A stretch of 64,000 bases of DNA, taken from the NCBI GenBank assembly GCA_033030425.1, contig JAUFSD010000020.1, positions 1,322,898 to 1,386,897 of the forward strand, written 5' to 3'. The position numbers and the translations under genes are program-made. The notes under the pieces were generated by a model, which saw nothing but the letters and a program-made list of their open reading frames with translations, searched no databases and was not told the origin of the DNA. Positions 9,249-64,000 of the stretch are shown one piece after another (positions within the stretch are counted from its first letter, which is position 1; every line of letters begins with the position of its first letter). This DNA comes from Verpa conica. Taxonomy: Eukaryota; Ascomycota; Pezizomycetes; Pezizales; Morchellaceae.

Positions 9249-9850
9249 GTTCTCGATTTTCCTAAGCGCAATGCGTTCGTCTAGTGCAATGAAGGACTAC
9301 AGGTACAATTAGCTAGAAGACAACTGTTTTATCAGAGTGGTGCGTACCGGGCGGTTATTACGAGCATCTCTGCTCTGTTTGAGTTTGATCGATAGGTATG
9401 TTTGGGCTTTGGAGAGGAACATGGCCCTTAGATTGAAGGAGAATATTTCTGAAGGTTAATATCTGCAGTCACAAGATATTGTGAGTGCTGGAGAAGAGGG
9501 AGTTTCTTGATTGAAATTCTGATATTAAGTAGGTGCTTATGGGGACTTGCGCAACCCAGAGAAACACCAAGTGACGAGGTGATTCTAGGAAGCAGCGTAA
9601 GGGGAAGATGAAGATGATTATCTGATGATAGGCTGAAGTACCCGTGGTGGTTAGGGTGTTGTGGGTGATGATTAGAGATGGTGATGGGTGAGTTTGAGAA
9701 AACAAGGACGATACTTTAGGTCAGAGGGTGGATACCTTATACATATATGTATGGGGGCTTCCCTTCTTCGTAAAATACATACATACATGAAAGTGTGCAG
9801 GGTTAGGGTTGCAACCGCGACTTATTAAATGAATGAACTAATCATAGGTA
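9249..9850. other. intergenic
   Basis: No gene supported; a 78-codon minus-strand frame at 9469-9705 has no features. The stretch ends with TA (9849-9850), which abuts the large transposon. Confidence 0.45.
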
Positions 9851-9904
9851 CAGTCAGTACGCAGAAATGTTCGTGATCGGCTGACTAAGCATACCCCATC
9901 AAAA
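9851..9904 (+). repeat. Left terminal inverted repeat of the 12-kb transposon
   Basis: It starts CAGTCAGTACGCAGAAATGT and ends in CATCAAAA. It matches the right end at 53 of 54 positions. TA precedes it. Confidence 0.9.
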
Positions 9905-10233
9905 AAGTGAATAGCGAAGAAATACATTTTAATTTACTATAAAACAACCAGACAAGATAGAGAGCTGCAATAAGAATAGAGAGAGGTAGAATGAAATAGA
10001 GAAGCAAGTACACATATTTTAAAGTAAAAAAAAATTACAAAAAAAACCCGAAAATGTTACGCAATATCTAGCTACAGTTCGTTGCCATATGTCACCGTAA
10101 CTGCCCGTGGCAACCGCCCCCCGAGGCCTCGACCGCGCAACCACGTACCCCTCGTACCCCCCCAATTATGGCCATAGACAAGCGGTTTTTTGTGGGAGTA
10201 ATATATACTATCTAATAAATAAATCCATACTAT

Positions 10234-11331
10234 CTAATATTTTGTATACCAGCCCTTTGCCTTTATAACAGCCTCAATCCTCCTAGGAATACTTTCTACC
10301 AGTCTATCAAACAGAGTGTCAGGTATTAATTCCCAGCAGTGAATAAGAGCTTCTTCCATGATAGGCTTTAATACATCTGGTGATTGAGTATTATCTGCCA
10401 GGTGAGAATAGTGTAGATGGTAGAGCTTTTTGAGGTGTACCCAAACATGCTCAATGGGGTTGAGATCTGGAGAATAGGCAGGCCAGTCCTCCAACAACTC
10501 CACCCCATTATCCACCAACCAGTCTATTGAATGGTCTGCTGTATGGACTCTGGCATTGTCCTGCATGAAAATAGGCCTTATATCCTTCTGGCGCAATTCC
10601 TCCACAAAATCCACCAAGTTAAACTCTAAAGTCTCCACATATGACCTAGCATTTACATTCCCTTTTATCCCCACCCTTGCTCCATCACAAGGACCCTTCA
10701 ATCCCCCAGCAAAGCATGCCCACATCATCTTTGTTATCCTGCTCGTCTTATTCATGCCTTTAACACACTCTGGAAGCCATTTTTCCTTTGCAGTTCTAAA
10801 GACCCATTGGACTAAAGGATCTGCATATTTTTCAACACTGCACTCATCACTCCATATCACTCTCCTCCACTTCTCCACCCCCCATTTCCGGTGCTTAATA
10901 CATCATTTAAGTCTTCTTTGAGCCAGAGAAGGTGATAGTTTGGGTCTTTCTGCTTTAATGTGTTTGTGGACACCATGCTCTCCAAGTCTTCTCCTAATTG
11001 TTGTAGTAGACAACTGAACAGCAAAATTTAAGCGAAGATTATTGTAGGATATATCGCGGTTGTGTCTAGTAGCATTCACTAGATTGCGCTCATTCTTTTC
11101 AGAGGTCTTTTTAGGTCTCCCAAGTCTTGGGGATGCGATTGTGGTGCCTGTTTTAAGGAAGCGCTGCCAGGCAGTTGAGAGAGTTGATATTGGTACACCA
11201 AGTCTCTTAGAAATCTCGGCAAAAGTGAGGCCTGCTTCATGCATTCCTATAGCCCTGCCTAGGGTGAACTCTGGCCATTCTCGGCGTTCAGTTTTGCGGC
11301 TTTGCTTAGGGGTGGTGTGGGGTGGGGCCAT
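10234..11331 (-). pseudogene. Tc1/mariner transposase with one in-frame stop
   Basis: Tc1/mariner transposases cut and paste DNA at TA sites. The frame from the ATG ending at 11331 encodes helix-turn-helix sequence (AGLTFAEISKRLGVPISTLS, then a GRPKK hinge). After a single in-frame TGA at 10903-10905 the same frame resumes with the DDE core: VIWSDECSV (first Asp), FMQDNARVH (second Asp) and YSPDLNPIEHVW (Glu). It ends KGWYTKY. With the stop read through the protein would be about 365 residues, the normal length. Only one lesion is visible, so it is a young inactivation or possibly a readthrough case. Confidence 0.9.
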
Positions 11332-11399
11332 GGTTGCACGGGTGGGGTAGCGGGGTGATCGTGGTTGCGTTGCATTTTTACGTTCACATTTGGTACCTG

Positions 11400-12835
11400 A
11401 CTATAGTACCGTGTATACCACCCCTTTGCCGCAATGACTGCTGCAATCCTATCTGGCATTGACCTCCATAGCTTCTCAAAAAACTCGTCTGGAATTGTCT
11501 CCCATACCTGGGGCAACACCTGTGCTAGTCTCTGCTTTACAGCTTCTTTTCCACCTGGAGTCTTGCCAATATTTGGGTACTGTTGATGGAGGCGTCTTTT
11601 GAGCTCAACCCAAACATGTTCAATAGGATTAAGATCAGGAGAGTATAGAGAGTGAACTTCTACTGGAATTCTATGGCGCTGGAACCAAGCAGTAACATTA
11701 TGAGCTTTGTGAATAGGAGCATTATCTTGTTAGAAGAAACAATCTCCATTAAACTCAACACATTTGCGCCATACTGCAGGAAGGTAATGCGATAAAAGCC
11801 GCACATAACGCGCCAAAGTGCAATTTTGAAAAATCGGGACTAGAGGGCCTTTTGTGCTACCGTGGAAGCATCCCCATACCATCAATTGAATGCCTTTATC
11901 CTTTGATTTAGGGTGGACACATTTGGCTAGCCATTTTTCTGGTAGTTTGCGGAATACCCATACTTGGCGGGGTTTTTGCCTTTTTCCACGCTGCACTCAT
12001 CACTCCAAACAACACATTTAAACTCCTCCACACCCCAATTCTTCCGTTCTATTACCCATTCTAGTCGTTGCTTTGCATGTTCTAGTTTAAGCAAGAGTCG
12101 GCGCTTGGCTAGCCACTTTTTGATTTTTGCTTCGCGTAACACCCGATCCACAGTAGCTGTCAAGAACACCCATTTCCTAGTCTGCCTTATCTATCTCCTT
12201 GTTTCATGTATCGTTTCATATCTCGTAGGATTCTGGTTACCATTGGTCATGTAAGAAGTACGCCTTGCAGGACGAGACGTCTATAGTTTCATATAGAAGG
12301 AGGTCACTCCTTCAGTTTCATATTGTCTCATTGTTGATCTCAGCGTCCCTCCAGAAAAGGTATAAAAGGGACGCATCTCTGTCAGTTAGTTAGTTCTTCA
12401 CGCAACAACTTGCATTGTTACCATACCTACCTTGTCCCTGAGTTCCTAGTTTTTCGATACTAGCCTTGCCTCGTGATTATCACCTGCTGTTCCCCAATAG
12501 GTGATCGGTTTTTACAGTAGCTAAGGAAACACCCTACGCATATTTATCTCTAAACTCGGTACGAGTCATTGTACGGTTTGATTTAGCTGCACGTACAATC
12601 TGTCGGCGCTGCTGGTGATTCAGCAAAGGAGTACGGCCCGATCGTGGAATATTGTCGATAGAAACTCGTGCACATGCGCGTACCAGGAAGCTTTTTACGG
12701 TAGACCATGGACGACAGACTAGGTTGGCAACTGTGGTAACACACCAATATATGCGGAAGAATGCAAGGATCGTTCCTTTTTCGCAATCATCTATTTGTTT
12801 TCGGGAGGTTTTGGTTTTGTACTTCGGGACTTTAG
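11400..12835 (-). pseudogene. Second, degenerate Tc1/mariner transposase
   Basis: Fragments on the minus strand align in order with the neighbouring copy. An N-terminal helix-turn-helix region with the hinge IDNIPRSGRTPLL lies around 12.58-12.69 kb. CVVWSDECSVEK (first Asp) lies near 12.03 kb, QDNAPIHKAHN (second Asp) just after a stop near 11.73 kb, YSPDLNPIEHVW near 11.6 kb, and the KGWYTRY end near 11.42 kb. It is broken by stops, frameshifts and a roughly 350-bp insertion around 12.17-12.52 kb that contains a probable solo LTR. Sequence around the break (ACAGTAGCT...AACACC) occurs on both sides of it. Confidence 0.85.
12249..12520 (+). mobile_element. Probable solo LTR inside the degenerate Tc1 copy
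   Basis: The segment starts TGTAAGAAG and ends TTTTTACA, so it has short inverted TGTAA/TTACA ends. It contains a promoter-like GGTATAAAAGGG about 120 bp in. This fits a retrotransposon long terminal repeat left after recombination. I could not find a matching 5-bp target duplication, so the boundaries are tentative. Confidence 0.45.
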
Positions 12836-12848
12836 CTTTTGGTTTTGT

Positions 12849-12880
12849 ACGGGGGCGCGTATAGACCAGTTCGCAGTTTC
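12849..12880 (+). repeat. Internal inverted block, left copy
   Basis: The 32 bases beginning ACGGGGGCGCGTATAGACCA are repeated exactly in reverse complement at 21827-21858. This is the inner part of the long terminal inverted repeat of the 12-kb element, displaced from the outer part by the Tc1 cluster. Confidence 0.85.
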
Positions 12881-13054
12881 AATCCTGCAGTGGGTTGCAA
12901 CCACCTATACCTAAAAACTTATTGGCAAATAAAATAAAATAAATTCATACTAGTTTAAGAGCAGAGAAGATTAAAATATTAATTATGAATCCAAAATTGC
13001 TATGTAGTATACAAAGTAGTAAATATTACTTCTGCTATTACTATGTATTTCTCA

Positions 13055-13240
13055 ATGTGGCAGCTGTGAACTCTGCCGTTGCCATGTGTTTCTCAAAACG
13101 GTAACTGTGAACTTTGCCATTGTCATGTTTATCCCAGTGTAGCAACTGTGAACACTGCCGTTGCTATGTGTTTCCGAAAATGGTAACTGTGAACTTTGCC
13201 GTTACCATGCTTATCCCAATATGGCAACTGTGGACTTTAT
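13055..13240 (+). repeat. Left subterminal repeats of the 12-kb element
   Basis: About five imperfect units of roughly 40 bp share GGCAACTGTGAACTTTGCC and a following ATGTGTTTCTC or ATGTTTATCCC spacer. The core GTAACTGTGAACTTT appears in reverse complement near the right end. Such repeats are typical transposase binding sites. Confidence 0.8.
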
Positions 13241-13283
13241 TCTCACTGTATTCTTTTAAGTTTTCTTAATAGTACAAAAATAT

Positions 13284-15091
13284 TTATTCCTCAAATTCGC
13301 TAGCAGTATTATATGCAGATCCAGATCCAGATTCTCCACCTTCATCTACAATTTCGTCATTATTTTCCTCCATATTTTGTAATCCACTTTCTCTAATATG
13401 TTGAGCATCTATGCTAATAGGATAATCTTTTTCAAGAGGAGAAGATATTAAATGAACTCGAGGGTTTCGATTTCCTTTAATATATACATGATTTCTGACA
13501 TTTAATCTAAGCGTACAATACATAAGGAAATGTGACTTCTCACCATTGAGTTCTCGTTTTTCATAGGTAACTGGTAGTTCAAAACCACCTTTTAGCAGCA
13601 AATGTTTACACCATGACATAGTTTGAGCTGGTAGAAATATATCATGATCTAATAACATTTATATTAGCATGTCTTTGTATTTAAATTAGAGCAAAATTTG
13701 GATATTTTACCATAATTCCCTACCATATCTTCTAAGCAAGAAATCCCTTCTCTTGATGGAATATAGGCATAGTCAGATATATTATCTGGTGGATAAAAAT
13801 AATTATAATAAGGTATTCCAGTAGGTAAACTAGGCCGATTCTTTTGAGCTCGAATTTTGTGTGAATTCCAATTTTCTACAAAGCTATGAAGCTTTTCACG
13901 AATTATAGGCATGTAGATAAATAACAGAGCAATTTTATCTTCATTTGAGCCATCAAAAAGATTTGAATTTTGTAGCTCAACAAAATATCTCTAAAAAAAT
14001 TAATTTAGTTAATTAATATATTGATATATAGGAGATCAAACATACCTTCCATTCAATTTCTTTTCCTTTAGACAACTGTGCCCACCATGACTCTATTCGG
14101 ACATTTTTTGTGGAAGCACCATACATAAATGTACTCGAGAGATGGATATTTGGGGTTTGTGTTTTATGTAAATGCCAGTGACCATCTGCAATTAACATAG
14201 TCTCAGTACCTCTATCAGCTCGTAAATATTGAGGAAATCGATTGTGCTCTTGAATAGCTTTTAAGTATTGGCTTAAAACGCTAACTCCAGTTCTAGCAGA
14301 AACTCCACAATAAAACCATACTATCATACGAGAATAAGCATCAATTGCCGCATATATTTCTATCCCAAAAAACTCGAGCTTCATATGACCATCAATTGAC
14401 CAACACCAATTAGGACCTGGACATGTGAATTGTGCATGTTTCCGATTAACATCTTTTGTTCTAGATTCCACACCTTGAGGATCTACAATCAATAAAGCTT
14501 TTCGTATTCTCTCCCTACAAACAATATTAGTTATTTAAATTTATATAGGAAATGTTAAATTCCATACGTTGAAGCTACAACTCCTAGGCTTTTCAGATGA
14601 ACCCAAACAGCTCGGTGGCCAGAGAGAACAATATCACCCTTTAATAACTCTCGTTCCAAAATAATCCTCAAGTTTTCATCTGCATGAGTTAAATCCCTAC
14701 TCAATGTACGTCGAACCATACCCATTGACTGACGGATCCTAATCATTTTTCGCATCTCTATTTGGAATCCGTTTTTCTGCAGAACCTAATACATTAGCTA
14801 ACATTTAAAAATATATTAATATAAACCTACTCGAAGTATTTGTTCATCATTCAAATTTTGTTTCCAAAATAGATAGCTTAACTGGATCCGTAGAGTAGGA
14901 GAATCTTCTGAAGGTAATATTTGTTTCCGAAAGCTCCAAATATTGAGCCGGGTAGAAAGTGATCTTTCAGAGCAAACAAATCGATTATCAGCAAGCTTTT
15001 GTACTACTTGTTTTAGAGAAAGGTTTTGTTCAATATATAGTTGATATATAAAATCTTTATACTGTTCAAAGGGTAAAGCTGATCGAGGCAT
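13284..15091 (-). CDS. DDE transposase: Clr5 domain plus integrase core
   Basis: Five exons (15091-14831, 14785-14568, 14514-14046, 13990-13711, 13648-13284) join in perfect phase into 530 residues; each intron has GT-AG ends and a CTAAT/CTAAC-like branch. Residues of about 8-58 fit the Clr5 domain (FEQYKDFIYQLYIEQNLSLK...ERSLSTRL), a fungal DNA-binding module. The catalytic core resembles integrase/rve proteins, with Asp201 in WSIDGH, Asp260 in LRADRGTE and Glu301 in RIESWW. The C-terminus is acidic. The start ATG directly precedes the Clr5 domain. No stop or frameshift was seen, so the enzyme may be functional. It is the only complete transposase inside the 12-kb element and presumably acts on its ends. 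Confidence 0.85.
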
Positions 15092-15235
15092 AGTATAGCT
15101 GGTAATAATGAGTTTAGAAAGTAAAATGAGTTTAAAAAATTGTAGAGAATTTTGGGAAAGTCTATACATTATATAACAAGTTTTCGAATAATATAAAAAG
15201 TATAGAAATGATATAAAAGGCATACTAATAACATG

Positions 15236-15332
15236 AAAAGTGTAAAAGCAGTACAGGGGGTTTAGAAATGACATAGGGGGCGTACAAGAAGTACAGGGGG
15301 TTTAGAAATGACATAGGGAGCGTATAAGGAGT
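15236..15332 (+). repeat. 40-bp tandem repeats, left remnant
   Basis: Units containing GTACAGGGGGTTTAGAAATG and ACATAGGGGGCGTACAAGAA repeat about twice here. They continue beyond the inserted element at 17015-17420, so the array was split. Confidence 0.85.
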
Positions 15333-17014
15333 TAGTGTTTGTCTTGGAGCGATTCGGGACGGTTCCTAAAATTCTGAACCCACCCCACCGTGGGTTTGGG
15401 GGCAGATTTTGACTAAAAAAACCGCCCGGCCGGGGCGATTCCCTGGTCGGGGATGGTTTGGGGCGGTTCCCTGTAACGGGGGCACTCCCAGGGGAGTACT
15501 GCCGTACCAAAAAAAACCAACAACCTCCCTTTCTGACGAGAAGCTTCAGCAGCGAGGCTTAGAACCGCTCGTCAACACGGAAGGTCGACAGTCCCTAGGC
15601 AAAACAGGAATAAGGATTTAATGGATAGATAACTAAAGACTTTAAAAGGCTCTGCTTCCCAGGGGAAGACAAACGTCTTTAGCAAAGAGTATGAGGGTCT
15701 CTGAACAACGGTTGTTCGTTGACTAGCAAGAATGATTGTCCTGGGGGGAAGGACGGGTTTAAGCTATGATTTTGATTGCGAGCAGGCTGCCAAGAAGCGG
15801 GGGAACAATTCCTCCGCGCTTGGAAATCAACTGAGTCTAGAGCGCCCCTAAGAACTAGCGGGGTCGATAGACTAGCGACTAAAAAGCGTTGGTTACTAAA
15901 AGCTCTGTAACTATTGCTAAAATGGTCCGATTTCAAATCCGATTGCACCTATGGATTCGCAGCACTGTCCCCCATATACCCTCCGAGTTTGGTTTGGTTG
16001 GACGAATTTTCCTGACGGTTTTGGGGTTATTTTTGGGGTCCAAAACTTGTCTTTTTGTTAGGGAATCAGCAACTCAGGGGGGCCCCCTCTGCAAACGGCG
16101 GGTGGCACAGTGGGGTGCCTCGGGGGTGTTAGAAAACACAGAGTCCCCTAGGTAGGGTAACCCACTGGTGATTCCTGCCGTTGCTTAGATTCCTTTCCCA
16201 CGTTCCTAGTCCAACCTGGGGTCGTGGCGGAGAGGTAATCTTGATCCATAAGGACCTTAGGGCGACGCACAAGGCATAGCCCCATATGGTTCGATTCGTG
16301 ACGCCGCCAGGTTAATTATTAATTTTGCTGGCGGCCCTAACAACTAAGCATAGCTTTGCTCTCGTTTCATGACTCTCGGCCTTCCGTAAGGATGGCCTTC
16401 AGCGAAGCTGTTATTATTCCTCCTAGAGGAACAGGAGCTTAACTCTGTTCAGGGAGGTAACTGCTTCAGTCTCATTGCACTAGTATTTCCCGTAGCTAAG
16501 AGCTACAGACGCATTACTCTGGTCTCTGTCGCATACCGACGACGGTGAGCTTCGCTCCGTCCTAGGGGCTCGCCAGCTCGCTTAGGGATCGGGCTATCAT
16601 AGTAATGGCTTTCCTTAGTATCTATTGACCGGAATGGGATAGCTAGTCCTATGCCTCAAGGGAGATCCTTAGGTGTCTCTATGGAGAGGTACTTGAGACT
16701 AGTTATGACGATGGTTAGATCGTCACATTCCCCACTGGGGAGAGTTCTATTTCTGCACCACTATGTATATACCGTCATTCATACACCATTCATACGCCTT
16801 CCATACGCCTTTCATGGTGCTTTGGAACTCAATTGCAGTCCCCAAAGGCTGTATATATCAATTTTTCTCTAATTGGGGCCCCGAGATGCACGGTCCTCCC
16901 CCCGTCCTTTGCTCAAAATCCAGAATTGCTCCGCCTTGTGGAGCGGTTTAGGGCGGTTTTTTGGTGCGGTTCTCCGAGGCATTTGGAGGACCGAGTCCCC
17001 CGTGACAAACACTA
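15333..17014. mobile_element. hAT-like non-autonomous element, 1.68 kb
   Basis: The ends are TAGTGTTTGTC and its exact inverse GACAAACACTA. The flanks are TAAGGAGT (15325-15332) and CAAGGAGT (17015-17022), an 8-bp duplication with one change, fitting hAT. Further in, both sides share AAAAAACCGCC. The insertion splits a 40-bp tandem array. The interior (about 15.6-16.7 kb) has no transposase. It is GC-richer than its host and full of short hairpins such as GTAGCTAAGAGCTAC, as if it had captured foreign DNA, possibly organellar; I cannot name the source. Confidence 0.7.
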
Positions 17015-17420
17015 CAAGGAGTACAGGAGGTTTAGAAATGACATAGGGGGCGTACAAGAAGTACAGGAGGTTTAGAAATGACATAGGAGGCGTACAAGAA
17101 GTACAGGGGGTTTAGAAATGACATAGGGGGCGTACAAGAAGTACAGGAGGTTTAGAAATGACATAGGAGGCGTACAAGAAGTACAGGGGGTTTAGAAATG
17201 ATATAGGGGGTGTACAAGGAGTATAGGAGGTTTAGAAATGACATAGGAGGCGTACAAGAAGTACAGGGGATTTAGAAATGACATAGAGGGCGTACAAACA
17301 ATATAAGAAATTTACTCATGACATAGAAAGCCTATATTTGATACAAATGACATAGAGGGCGTAAAAATGACATAGAGAGCGCAAAAATGACATAGAGGGC
17401 GTACAAATATTAATAAAAAT
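17015..17420 (+). repeat. 40-bp tandem repeats, main array
   Basis: Roughly seven clear 40-bp units of GTACAGGAGGTTTAGAAATG plus ACATAGGAGGCGTACAAGAA are followed by decayed units ending in CATAGAGGGCGTACAAAT. The array lies between the transposase and the 17607 gene of the 12-kb element, possibly a shared promoter region. Confidence 0.85.
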
Positions 17421-17606
17421 GTAATAAACCTGTTTTTATAATGACGTCAATAAAAAATATCTAGATTATAATATTCTTTTTAAAGATCTGATATAATAGA
17501 ATATATACTTATTCAAATCCCCTTTCTGTTTCTCTTACATATTCTCTCTCTAGTACTTCTACAATCACTAATTACTGCCTTCTCGAGTTAAAAAACTATT
17601 TAAATT

Positions 17607-19211
17607 ATGCCTTCAACAGAAAAGCCTGCTGGCCGATGGTGTTCTCAAAGTTTAAGTGGAAAAGAACATGAAAATAGTATCAATCTCCGATATGAATGTT
17701 CTGGGAAACTTGTTCCGGATTCTCTCAAAATCGTATCAAAACGAGTTCTAGCAACAAACGTATCTCAACCCTTTATATCCTCTGAGCTTCCAAAGCGGAA
17801 GCGTGTTAAGAGGTCAAAAGACAAGGCTACTTTAGCTCCTCCACTCATTGATTTAATATCTAGTTCAAATTCTAGTGAAGAATATGAACCTTTTGTACGT
17901 CAGAGTCATTCTACAGATACAAATTCTCATACATCTTTATTTAAAACAGGTCAGTCCACCACTCGTTTAATTATCGAAGCTACTAGGCAGAAATCAATTA
18001 AAAATAGTCAAATAGAAGCCACAAATAAAAGAGTTGGGAGCAGATTTGGTCTTTCAGATATACCATCAGCTATGGCAAAAAGCACTACTCGCTCCGGATA
18101 TGATAGTCAAAAGATATCAGACAGCCGAAAACTTTCCATATGGTTTAACTCAACTCCTAAAAGTTGGCCAAAAACCGGAATACCTTACTGGAGTAGCTTT
18201 TTACAAGTTGGTAAGAATTCTCTTGAAGTATATATAACTATAATTTAACTATTATTAGGGGTTTCTACAAAGCAGTTCTCCAATCTCAATGAGGAAATCA
18301 ATGGATCTTTGAAAAAATATATTAAAAATAAACTTTTTGACAAATCCACAGCTTGGATTGAGTGGTGCCGTCGTAGAGAGAATATTGACAATGACTCTTT
18401 ACGTCATACTAACTATTATTTAGCAACTGGATTTCATGCCAAAGAAGGTCCTCACTATATTGAAGCCAAAGATGAAGGACCTGGCACGATTGGTCAACTT
18501 TTAAGTAGTTTTCCAGCCGGTGCTGGTGCTGGTGCTGGGAGGATTTTCATAATTGTAGAAGAGTTCTATGATAATTCTGATGAAGAAATACCTATATCTA
18601 GTAAGAACGCCCCAAAAATCATATACAGACATAATTAAATGAATATTGCTAACTAAATTAATTAGCCCTATTAAAACCAACTATATCCAATATAAAAATT
18701 AAAAAAGAAGTTATTAAGCAGGAAGATATTAAGCAGGAAACGGAAGCTACTCAGAAAAAGCCAAGTTATTTACATCAAGAGAGGGTAAAAAACGCTAGCA
18801 GTAAATCAGATTCCGAATCTGAATCAGTTGAAGATAGTTTAAGCTCTGACACTGATAACATACTTGAGAATACAGTAATTATTTCTAAGTAAAATTTTTG
18901 GTCAATATAGCTAATTTGCTTAAAGCTTCAAGAGAACCACAATTTTCTAGCGGATTTTGAGCTTCCTTCACATATACCTCCAAAAGAAGAAACATTTATT
19001 CCTGCTGGTAGTAATTTAGGAAATAATTTCGAATCACAGAGTACTAATTAAATCAACTATTTTAAGAAATTTTGCTAATTACGATTTAGATATAATTGAT
19101 GATGATAAAAACCCACCAGCTAGACGTACAAGATCTCAAAAAAGACCCAAAATAAGTATATTTACCCTATACCTAAACTCATATGTTATGAATAAATTAT
19201 ACCTAACTTAG
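17607..19211 (+). CDS. Unknown transposon-borne protein, about 463 residues
   Basis: Five exons (17607-18210, 18259-18600, 18666-18874, 18926-19040, 19090-19211) join in phase. The first three are well supported and the last two are tentative. I do not recognise the family. The N-terminal half is Ser-rich with a basic patch (LPKRKRVKRSKDKA) that looks like a nuclear signal. The central part (SSFLQVGVSTKQFSNLNEE, WIEWCRRRENI, TNYYLATGFHAKEG) looks folded, and a short Gly-Ala run follows (AGAGAGAG). The tail is Lys/Glu/Ser-rich and acidic. It lies divergently from the transposase inside the same terminal repeats, so an accessory role in transposition or chromatin is a reasonable guess, no more. 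Confidence 0.65.
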
Positions 19212-19859
19212 TTTTATATAGTTACATACTAGTATTCTCCGGTTTCTAGATGTTAACTTCTTATATATATACTATTATAATATTTTGCTCCTATTAAAAT
19301 CTCTTTGGAGTTTCTATTGTTTATGTTTTGTTTAATATTAAATTTATTCCAGTTAATATTCTGAGAGCTAGGGTTACTACTAGGGTTGCCTAGGGTTAGG
19401 GCGGCAGCTACCGAGTGATTGCTCATGATCTAAATTTCCGAAAATAAATTTTATAACTATGAATTTAAATATAAAAGTACTAGGTGGAGCTATATAACTA
19501 TTCTCTATATACAGTCCTTTTATCTATATATATAAACTATTTTTGAAGTAGTTTAACTATTAAAGCTGTTTGAGTTACGAAAATTCGAGTGAGAATTGGT
19601 GATTTGCGTACTATTTATTTTTTTAATTTATGAATAAGTGCTTTAAAAACTTGAATAATTCAGCTATGGTAGTTAACGCTATATAGAGTATAATAGTCAA
19701 TTTATTGAATGTATTCAGATTAACCTAAGTATATAAAATGTATACTAAAGAAATATAATGTGTACTTAAGAAATATAATGTGTACTTAAGAAAAATATAA
19801 ATAATAATAGAATTATCATGCTATGATAATATAAGAAATCACATTACTCAAACAATTTC
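19212..19859. other. AT-rich spacer inside the transposon
   Basis: No coding sequence is visible. Telomere-like AGGGTTAGGG occurs near 19,390-19,400, and a short direct duplication (AAGAAATATAATGTGTACTT) lies at about 19.75-19.79 kb. Confidence 0.5.
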
Positions 19860-21297
19860 CTACTCCGATTTTTTACCTTTCTTCCCACTTTTCTTCTCCA
19901 CAGCTTCTTCAATAATGTTTAGATCCAAAATAATGGGTTGAGTGGAAGCCACTTCACAGTTACATGGCTGATATTTTTTTCCTTCTGATAGCCAATCTTC
20001 AGTGGCAAAATTCATAGCTTCTGCAAGGTTCCAGCCGCTATTAATACCAGAATGATATGCTCCAGGCCATACAATTATCATTTCTCCTTTTGTTTGAGTG
20101 AATTGATAGCAAGCATAGCCTGATTTCTTCCAAGCTTCAGGTGTAAGAGGAGGAGAGCTTAAAACAAAGCCTTGGTGACGTAAAGCTTGTGGACATGTAG
20201 TAATCTCAAGCTCCTCAATAGTAGCTATTAAATAGAATTAATATAAATATAACCTATTTTTTAGTATAGAGAAACTAACCTTTAGATTCTGTCACAAACA
20301 TCTGCATGCAATGCCCAGGAATAATATGCCAAATTTTAGGAGCACCATCAATAAGGGTGTTTGCAGAATGGCAATGATAGTCTTCTACATGCCAGGCAAA
20401 AGCAGTACCAGGAGTACCAAAATAAACGTAAGGTGTAGTGATTCCTGGTATAGAATCTAAACCAGGTGTAAGGAGAAGGTTCCAGTCGTTATTAAAGAGA
20501 TGAGTCCATGTTCTATCCATATTAACCATTGAAACTATACTTTGTTAGATATTAAACATTTTTATAAAATGAATAGGGATATACCATCTGTATCTACCCC
20601 ATAAGGTCTTACTTTAGACTGCTGGTTTTTCGATTTCACAACTTCTTTATTCACTTTTTCCCAAAATGAATCCATAGTACCAATTAATTGATAGTCTTCC
20701 TTTTTGATAATCTGATTATGCCAACGTGACATTTTGACATATGCAGGCAATGAAGCCACTGTATAAGCCTTCCCTCCATCGTTAATACTGCTTGTAAGTT
20801 CTTCAAAAACTTGATTTCTGACAAGAATATCAATTTTGGATAAGGGTTTAGAAACAGGAGTTTTAAACCATTCTTTCCCAGTTTCGATAGGTGGAAGACA
20901 TAGCTTTAAACCTCCATAATGCCTGCCTAATTGAGAGAGCATTTGCAGTAGAAGAGGAAACTCTTGGATGCCTTTGGAAGTGGGTGTAATAGTAGGAGGA
21001 TAAAGAGTATTTGTATGCTTTACAATAGCATATGTGTCAGGGATTAGATGGAAACGTAAAGGTTTAGGGACTTCAGCAACTGAATTGGCTTCATTTGGTT
21101 GAGGTAGAATAATTGGTGTTTTTGCTATTCCATAATTATTTAATTATTCAACTATATAGAATTTTATACATACCAATTTCAAGTACTCTATTTTTTCTAG
21201 TCCACTGGCGCTTATATTCTCTTTTAGGATTAATACTATCCTTGCTTACTTTTTTATTAGTAGCAATGGTGTTGATTGTATGGTTGATAAAAGACAT
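19860..21297 (-). CDS. KDM4-like JmjN/JmjC histone lysine demethylase
   Basis: Four exons (21297-21174, 21124-20585, 20534-20280, 20224-19860) join in phase into 427 residues. Residues of about 78-122 fit a JmjN domain (YPPTITPTSKGIQEF... KLCLPP). The JmjC domain follows, with iron ligands His270 and Glu272 (AWHVED) and His364 (YHSG). Asn280 and Lys288 match the 2-oxoglutarate/iron-site residues of KDM4. Cys317, His323, Cys394 and Cys396 (TTCPQALRHQ, PCNC) match the KDM4 structural zinc site. Known KDM4 enzymes demethylate trimethyl-lysine on histone H3 (K9, K36) in the nucleus. The tail is Lys-rich (KKSGKKGKKSE), and no PHD or Tudor domain is present. It lies inside the terminal repeats of the 12-kb element and shows no lesion. 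Confidence 0.88.
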
Positions 21298-21365
21298 TTT
21301 ATATGAACTTGTAAGCAATTAGTATTTTGGTTTTGTGAATTATGGTTGCGCTGCCTCACTTACTT

Positions 21366-21560
21366 TGATGAAAGTTCACAGTTACTGTATTTGGAAGGTG
21401 CTCTGAAGAGTAGCAACAGGAAAGTAACAGCAAAAGTTCACAGTTACCGAGTTGGGAAGGTGCTCTGAAGAGTAGCAACAGGAAAGCAACAGCAAAAGTT
21501 CACAGTTACCGAGTTGGGAAGGTCTTTCTGAAGGAAGGCAACAAAAGTTCACAGTTACCG
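21366..21560 (-). repeat. Right subterminal repeats of the 12-kb element
   Basis: Four copies of AAGTTCACAGTTAC (three within AAAAGTTCACAGTTACCG) are spaced by GAAGGTGCTCTGAAGAGTAG-type sequence. In reverse complement they share the GTAACTGTGAACTTT core of the left subterminal repeats, so the two sets face each other. Confidence 0.8.
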
Positions 21561-21826
21561 GTTTGAAAGAGTAACAGCAAAGGAATAGCAGAGCAGAAGG
21601 AATAAATCTTCTGTGCCAAGCACACTGAATCTCGGCGCAAGCCTTGGCGCTGCCTCGGCATCCTCAAGTGAAATAAGTACCTTTTGTATAATTAGTATTA
21701 CTTATTTTCTCTGTCTTATTTTATCTTATCTATTACAGCTGTTGAAATTCTATATATTATTGACTTAGTTGTGGGACCCAGCTGTGGGTACCCGGCTGTG
21801 AGCCATTGAGTTGCGACCGAAGAACC

Positions 21827-21858
21827 GAAACTGCGAACTGGTCTATACGCGCCCCCGT
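21827..21858 (-). repeat. Internal inverted block, right copy
   Basis: Exact reverse complement of 12849-12880. Here it lies about 80 bp inside the outer end repeat, the undisturbed arrangement. Confidence 0.85.
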
Positions 21859-21937
21859 AGTTTTGCCATTTTGTGTAGGTGTTCTGGGTTCTCGATGGTT
21901 CAGGGGCTTGCGCTGCTGCTGGAAGCGAACCCACAAC

Positions 21938-21991
21938 TTTTGATGGGGTATGCTTAGTCAGCCAATCACGAACATTTCTGCGTACTGACTG
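21938..21991 (-). repeat. Right terminal inverted repeat of the 12-kb transposon
   Basis: It ends in ATTTCTGCGTACTGACTG followed by TA, and matches the left end with a single difference in 54 bases. A long minus-strand frame that crosses this boundary (21716-22165) is therefore not a gene. Confidence 0.9.
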
Positions 21992-23224
21992 TACATGTAG
22001 CCGGAAATTATCAGTATACAAGTCAATCATGTAAATTATGGGTATTTGATTTAGAATAACTGACGAGGGGTAACTTAGTCGATAATTAGGGAAGAAGATC
22101 CTTGATGATATAGACTGGAAGGTGGCGGTATATGACTGCCCTGGGATATCATCAGAAGCAGTCACATGATTATTTGCTCATTATGTATGGTCACTGTGGG
22201 GAGATCCCAGCGGTGATACAAACTTGATTTAACTAGAATATGTCTACAGAAATCCGAGTAATATCGTTGAGCTTAAGAAATCTACCAGGAGATAGAGACA
22301 AGTAAACAACTATTAAGACTAAGGATTCCCATAGGTAAGGCAGGGAACGAAGGGTGTATGTAGCTTAACTGTCTAATCTTCAGTATTACTACATATCTTG
22401 AAATAAACAATATTGATAAAGCCAGGGTTACGCTAAATCGGTTGAGTGCCAACGAAATTTCCGTGTGGTTTTCTCAACGACACTAAGTGGCATAAATTCA
22501 AAGCTATACTGTCTAATTAACTCAAGAATATACACCATTAGGGTTTTTAAATTCATGTCACTGAATGGGGTGGCGAAAGTGGGCATTTCTACTACTCAAA
22601 CTTATATGGTTAGGGTTATATATCTATACTGTTATAAGATGGGAGGCTTCTGGCTTTCTGGTTCTATGATATTTATTAGTGCCCTTTATTCTGCCGGATT
22701 ATATTGTGTGAATGGCTGCAGTGGCTGTGTTATAGTACTACCGAGGGGTTACTTATGGACCTCAGAAGGCCCGGAGGTGTGGGCTGCACAATTATTTGTT
22801 GCTTTCTGTGTAGGTAATGGCCAATATATACTCTTACCTTATATATTCCAAGGTGATTCCACCCACGGCTTAATTCTTTGGGATCCCTAGCTTACATAGT
22901 CTTGGTCAGTAGTGTCACGTGAAGACTACATAAAGTTTTAGTCATACACTAGCTCATGATCCTCCATAAGAGGATCATGTCCTTGGATGGAGGATCAGCA
23001 ATATACATTACTTCATTTTTTCATCTTTTGATTGAAGATATCAGGAAGTTAGCCTTCCAGCCGGCGAATGTGTCTTAGGGACAGTGACCAGGTGCGACAG
23101 ATAGTGTTGAAATAGCTTTTTGGTACTAGCTCCTGTATCAAGCGTCATAAGTAATATTTACGCCGATGTATATTGGTAGCGCAACGACCCGTGGAACTGC
23201 AAAACCTAGCCCTGCGCTATAGCC
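21992..23224. other. intergenic, decayed repeats
   Basis: No gene could be supported. A 141-codon plus frame at 22465-22890 has no domain and an odd composition. Sequence near 22,995-23,045 resembles the 3' end of the dispersed repeat described at 23225. Confidence 0.45.
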
Positions 23225-63835: not shown

Positions 63836-64000
63836 GGTTAGTTTAGTTAGGGGTAGTTAGGGTTTAGTTAGGGTTTAGTTAGGGTTTAGTTAGGGTTAGT
63901 TAGGGTTAGTTAGGGTTAGTTTAGGGTTTAGTTAGGGTTAGTTTAGGGTTAGTTTAGTTAGGGTTAGTTTAGTTAGGGTTTATTTTAGTTAGTTAGGGTT
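63836..64000 (+). repeat. Degenerate telomere-like repeats
   Basis: TTAGGG units alternate with TTAG inserts (GTTTAGTTAGGGTTAGTTAGGG and similar) right up to the window edge. The G-rich strand points to the right, as expected next to a right chromosome end. Irregular spacing indicates subtelomeric or eroded repeats rather than a pure telomere tract. Confidence 0.85.

Follow-up and report, generated by a model that had tools for sequence, protein, structure and literature searches.

Does a transposon of the fungus Verpa conica carry its own histone demethylase, and would such an enzyme serve the element that carries it? The question is raised by a locus on contig JAUFSD010000020.1, within a stretch of 64,000 nucleotides (positions 1,322,898-1,386,897, forward strand) that we call the window; other contigs of the same genome are designated C1, C2, C25 and so on. 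A first-pass annotation had described here, at 9851-21991, a DNA transposon with a gene related to the KDM4 demethylases. We find that a transposon carrying a KDM4-like gene is indeed present, but that its true extent is 12848-21859 (9012 bp) and that its features match the IS3EU kind and not the family as first read. The reading that we favor, with a probability of roughly 0.6, is that an IS3EU-kind transposon captured a KDM4-type gene whose product would erase histone marks to the benefit of the element.

Borders of the KDM4 element and the older element around it

The KDM4-carrying element ends in perfect terminal inverted repeats of 33 bp, with TACGGGGGC at the start and GCCCCCGTA at the finish, so that its termini read TACGG..CCGTA. 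Comparison of the two arms places the left repeat (TACGGGGGCGCGTATAGACCAGTTCGCAGTTTC) at 12848-12880 and the right one at 21827-21859 (plus strand), within the inner inverted blocks at 12848-12891 and 21816-21859 that had already been noticed at first pass. The target duplication is GTTTTG, identical on both sides (6/6; 12842-12847 and 21860-21865, plus strand), and the TA previously taken for a target duplication belongs to the end of the element. A second full copy with the same three genes, whose existence the first-pass annotation had suggested looking for, was found on C25: it is 7852 bp long, is flanked by CATATA (6/6), has no outer 57-bp ends and aligns with the window over 12848-21859, ending like the window element at both inner ends. 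Because the C25 copy stops at the inner block and has a 6-bp duplication of its own, it is at the inner block that the element truly ends.

The inverted ends of 54 bp, with TA outside, that had been proposed as the borders are real, but they do not bound the KDM4 element. An inverted-repeat search gives arms of 57 nt, 98% complementary, at 9848-9904 and 21938-21994 (plus strand), and searching the genome with these ends returned two matches, the arms themselves, so they are unique to this locus. Inside the arms, pieces of Tc1-like open reading frames (ORFs) give DDE_3 matches at 10237-10902 and 11262-11729, and a degraded Tc1-like transposase body occupies 11262-12847 on the minus strand, with its ATG beyond the insertion at 21867-21869. 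When the flanks of the KDM4 element are joined, a minus-strand Tc1-like frame runs for 105 codons from this ATG; at the occupied site the same frame stops after 8 codons. The restored frame, together with the DDE_3 matches, indicates that the 57-bp ends belong to an older Tc1/mariner element, and the KDM4 element is inserted into the first codons of its transposase gene. The older transposase is further broken by a solo long terminal repeat at 12158-12516 (TG..CA, GTAGC on both sides), and a second set of Tc1-like ORFs lies at 10237-11400, between the left end of the older element and its transposase.

The genes inside the ends

Three multi-exon genes lie between the ends of the KDM4 element, and the earlier description of them as undamaged holds: with GT..AG introns of 45-65 bp, modelled from sequence alone, splicing yields open products of 530, 390 and 427 amino acids in both copies. 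The last of these is the KDM4-like gene (19860-21297, minus strand, 4 exons), whose predicted protein contains a JmjC domain (PF02373, E 2.1e-24). Aligned to Rph1, it has H270/E272/H364, Y257/N280/K288 and the KDM4-type residues C317/H323/C394/C396 (C..H and C-x-C), which in KDM4 enzymes are the Fe, 2-oxoglutarate (2OG) and zinc residues, respectively. The JmjC part of what had been called a complete JmjN/JmjC set thus stands, catalytic residues included, and the JmjN part is reduced to a weak alignment: residues 85-139 align weakly to the N-terminus of Rph1, the JmjN region of KDM4, and matches to KDM4A, KDM4C and KDM4D cover this region in one stretch. The best matches among solved sequences are Rph1 (5.5e-29), KDM4D (1.8e-28) and KDM4A (6.4e-27). 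Members of the KDM4/Rph1/KdmA family, which act on K9 and K36 of histone H3 (PMC4949671), have the same sets of Fe, 2OG and zinc residues; the present protein differs from them in its length of 427 amino acids, in being transposon-borne, and in that no PHD, Tudor or targeting domain was recognised in it by Pfam.

In the protein database the KDM4-like protein has one match (33% identity over 42%), and its identity to the KDM4 of the host itself (C5:743301-743892) is 37-40%, which makes a recent capture of that host gene unlikely. A search of viral contigs for a KDM4 relative confirmed none. Searching the genome with the protein located the gene at two places, the window and C25, in both cases inside the same ends; the weaker matches, to JmjC genes of the host, are on C2, C18 and C5, and inspection of these suggests a divergent JmjC protein, a KDM5-like gene and a KDM4-like gene. 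Searching for the JmjC family yielded three further loci, none of them near any listed match to the IS3EU transposase. All six other JmjC loci (C18:1056843, C2:2711626, C5:743367, C2:3199391, C1:2647235 and C2:735228) lie hundreds of kilobases or more from the listed transposase matches or on a contig without any. The first-pass annotation had named as the finding that would speak against it a JmjC gene outside such ends in other genomes, with the ends occurring independently, in which case the linkage would be an accident of nested insertion. Nesting does exist, in that the KDM4 element itself sits in an older one; however, since the gene lies inside the same transposon ends at two of two places, its linkage to them is not an accident of nesting, and a host gene trapped by chance is rejected for this genome.

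The transposase gene (13284-15091, minus strand, 5 exons, 530 amino acids) encodes a Clr5 domain and an integrase core, rva_4 (E 1.6e-32), with rve under its Pfam cut-off. Its residues D201, D260 and E301 are kept wherever aligned among 24 relatives, two of which are without the first column, and the best of 39 protein-database matches is from Morchella importuna (58% identity over 66% of the query). According to PMC10045372, IS3EU/GingerRoot elements have TA..TA termini, in most cases duplicate 6 bp of target and encode a DDE transposase of the integrase type. The present element shares these features and has in addition the N-terminal Clr5 domain, the KDM4-like gene and the gene between, gene B. 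Because of its TAYGG..CCRTA-type ends, its 6-bp duplications and its integrase-type DDE transposase, and also in line with the inverted repeats of more than 30 bp that characterise IS3EU, we assign it on sequence features, short of placement in a reference tree, to the cut-and-paste DNA transposons of the IS3EU kind. Gene B (17607-18892, plus strand) comprises at least 3 exons and at least 390 amino acids, the 3' end of the model being uncertain; it has no domain above the Pfam cut-off and no relative in the protein database. Its identification as an alpha-kinase was rejected, as there was no match, and a genome-wide alpha-kinase search was likewise null, a result that recurred in 14 of 14 control genomes and so does not prove absence.

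Relatives in the same genome and differences between the two copies

A search of the genome with the transposase gave at least 61 matches, counted exon by exon as a lower bound and grouped by hand into about 20 places. Both ends were read for six of these (window, C25, C1, C8, C11 and C18); at C5 no ends were found within the 9.6 kb read, and the remaining places were viewed with flanks of at most 1.5 kb. Scanning the genome for the end pattern with up to two mismatches gave 11 places, consisting of five pairs and one lone end, and the backward pattern, used as control, gave one match. Three more elements have nearly the same ends as the KDM4 element, on C2 (CATATG, 6/6) and at C19a (GCATAT, 6/6) and C19b (5/6). 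The termini TACGG..CCGTA occur in all three as well as in the window, C25 and C1 elements, and the left end of the C8 element reads TATGG. Both the C1 element (6400 bp, GCTGAC, 6/6) and the C8 element (GGAAGG on both sides, read by eye) contain the transposase and gene B. An unrooted transposase tree, built from copies in this genome and database relatives with no reference IS3EU sequences among its members, groups the window and C25 with P0002, C5, C1 and C8 (support 1.000) and leaves C11 and C18 outside. The sequences L019, L020 and L017/L018 (2.85, 3.46 and about 14.2 kb) have ends nearly those of the KDM4 element; by DNA comparison they share nothing with it beyond these ends and nested repeats, and are probably non-autonomous derivatives.

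The C11 element (C11:1011003-1016641, L050/L080) is 5639 bp long, with 44-bp ends and a flanking 7-bp repeat, GTTACTT, which is one out of register if taken as 6 bp. It carries a minus-strand transposase, a plus-strand gene and a minus-strand match to TET/JBP above the Pfam cut-off, an order and orientation identical to those of the window element. The C18 element (C18:38902-46970, L083/L047/L084; 8069 bp, CAGAGG, 6/6) has a 462-amino-acid ORF whose TET/JBP match is under the cut-off (22 bits vs 34.9); its plus-strand ORFs are on the opposite side of the transposase, and nested inverted repeats are found around 40.6-44.0 kb. Eight more TET/JBP matches were seen, on C4, C23 (two), C21, C11:1361108, C16, C25:560974 and C5:1216767, five of the eight being under the Pfam cut-off; the four of them that were viewed have, within 1.5 kb, neither a match to the IS3EU transposase nor an exact end of the GGGGGC type.

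Between the window and C25 copies of the KDM4 element there are 58 differences in 7749 aligned positions, and 50 of the 58 are transitions. By context these divide into 13 CpA, 14 CpC, 13 CpG and 10 CpT (no formal test), with no apparent excess of the kind expected from repeat-induced point mutation. The KDM4-like gene differs by 4 non-synonymous and 7 synonymous changes (Fisher p=0.0028, uncorrected for three genes), which points to some constraint on its protein.

The remaining features of the element are repeats. A repeat search found subterminal repeats on the left (13043-13232, unit spacing 82 bp) and on the right (21371-21588, unit spacing 62 bp), both given on the plus strand and inverted relative to each other, as the first-pass annotation had stated. 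A 40-bp tandem repeat array, composed of two repeat families, extends over 15163-17406 and is interrupted by a nested insertion resembling a miniature inverted-repeat transposable element (15334-17013; ends AGTGTTTGTC, TA outside). This insertion is 1680 bp long here and 418 bp in C25, a difference accounted for by a further insertion of about 1.25 kb within it, at about 15473-16727. The latter repeat, which the C25 copy does not contain, has 97% identity to a stretch of L020 and resembles parts of L017. The window and the contig end, at 63900-64000, in degenerate TTAGGG-like repeats, as read in the last 60 bases; with only some 42-51 kb between it and this end, the KDM4 element looks subtelomeric. 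A tRNA scan found none, and an RNA-family search gave a single match, under its gathering score.

Anti-silencing and its alternatives

In the mechanism that we propose, an element of the IS3EU kind has captured a gene for a histone demethylase of the KDM4 type. The transposase would cut at the 33-bp ends, with the subterminal repeats as its putative binding sites, and the demethylase would strip trimethylation from lysine 9 and/or lysine 36 of histone H3 (H3K9me3, H3K36me3) around the element or throughout the nucleus, an activity that would keep the transposase expressed. The KDM4-like enzyme would then correspond, at the histone level, to the TET/JBP enzymes with which related transposons are equipped against DNA methylation. 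We draw the anti-silencing reading from the intact residues, from some sign of constraint and from the analogy to TET/JBP transposons and to giant viruses, and the precedents of TET-carrying fungal transposons and KDM4-carrying giant viruses make such a function plausible.

Several observations weigh against this reading. Only two full copies of the KDM4 element exist in the genome, and no KDM4 match was found inside the ends of the C1 and C8 elements, so the wider family can do without the gene; given the grouping in the transposase tree, it was either acquired along the window branch or lost from the other one. Pfam reported no JmjN in the 427-amino-acid protein at E<=1, in which it again differs from KDM4/Rph1/KdmA proteins, and the plus-strand gene of the C11 element has no detectable similarity to gene B. 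Between the two copies, the transposase (4 non-synonymous, 1 synonymous) and gene B (5 and 1) give no purifying signal, and the synonymous rate of the KDM4-like gene is 6-8 times that of either; its stretch may have a different history, which could make up part of the constraint signal.

Some of these same points would suit a neutral passenger, that is, a KDM4 gene captured by IS3EU that is of no use to the element and is open merely because the copies are young. The two copies are indeed close, elements of the same clade do without the gene, and the differences in the transposase and gene B look neutral. The gene is, however, so divergent from the host KDM4 that its recent capture from there is unlikely, yet it has kept every catalytic and zinc residue that we checked, along with splicing that is open in both copies and a substitution pattern pointing to constraint, and in the C11 element the third position is filled by TET/JBP; we regard this alternative as unlikely. 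Rather improbable, in our judgement, is that the protein opposes silencing without catalysis, or that it helps the element through a broad change in host expression and not locally. The lack of a recognised targeting domain would fit such modes of action, and a non-enzymatic anti-silencing role has been proposed for the putative demethylase Epe1 of fission yeast, as given in PMC7192584; the Fe, 2OG and zinc residues, which non-catalytic action does not need, are nonetheless kept. That the gene belongs to a single transposon delimited by the 57-bp ends, as first read, is scarcely credible: those ends do flank the region in inverted order, but they occur once in the genome, and the end of the C25 copy, the duplication of the inner element and the restored Tc1 frame all speak for the inner borders.

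Transposon-encoded opponents of silencing include the VANC proteins, which are not known to have a demethylase domain. They are anti-silencing proteins of Arabidopsis VANDAL transposons (PMC5735166, PMC10398659); they resemble the present case in this respect but are sequence-specific binders from other transposons and another kingdom. Closer in type are the IS3EU transposons with TET/JBP genes that Kojima (2025, PMC12730594) describes from rusts and from Tuber indicum, reporting TAYGG..CCRTA ends, inverted repeats of more than 30 bp and 6-bp duplications and arguing for an escape from methylation-based silencing. The V. conica element is like them in its ends, repeats and duplications, in a transposase gene opposite in orientation to a second gene and in a captured dioxygenase that probably opposes silencing. 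It differs in that the dioxygenase is a JmjC histone demethylase and not TET/JBP, and in that KDM4 lies beyond gene B, which has no alpha-kinase match, whereas in the published TET-carrying families TET lies between the transposase and an alpha-kinase gene. A term search of that paper found none of JmjC, KDM4 and Clr5. The same source mentions histone methyltransferases with a SET domain in oomycete elements of the Harbinger and MuDR kinds, which are also captures of a histone-modifying gene, but of a writer and not an eraser, and in other superfamilies and hosts.

The closest parallel for a KDM4 in selfish DNA comes from the endogenized giant viruses of Amoebidium, in which, according to PMC11244446, KDM4-like, JmjC-only genes are the most enriched class and are read by its authors as countering host chromatin. 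There too a divergent KDM4-like gene with introns and without PHD or Tudor domains occurs in selfish DNA while the host keeps a canonical KDM4, but the carriers are viral insertions in a protist and not a fungal transposon with inverted ends and a transposase. In the titles and abstract beginnings of the open literature we found no transposon with a KDM4 or other JmjC gene, which is weak evidence, as subscription papers and Repbase reports lie outside that search. TET-carrying IS3EU elements and KDM4-like genes in giant viruses are already known.

The shared layout of the window and C11 elements raises the prospect, to which we give even odds, that the IS3EU elements of this fungus have an interchangeable dioxygenase slot, filled by TET/JBP, acting on DNA methylation, in one lineage and by KDM4, acting on histone methylation, in another. 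If so, transposons would pick up erasers for either layer of silencing, and with the element described here a histone demethylase would for the first time be known to belong to a transposon and not to a giant virus. With an eraser of histone methylation borne by a transposon, the arms race between transposons and their hosts would be seen to extend to the histone layer as well. Verpa conica would then offer a compact natural system, with a transposon that occurs with or without the eraser and, sharing its nucleus, relatives that carry TET, in which one could ask whether anti-silencing is local and whether transposition rises.

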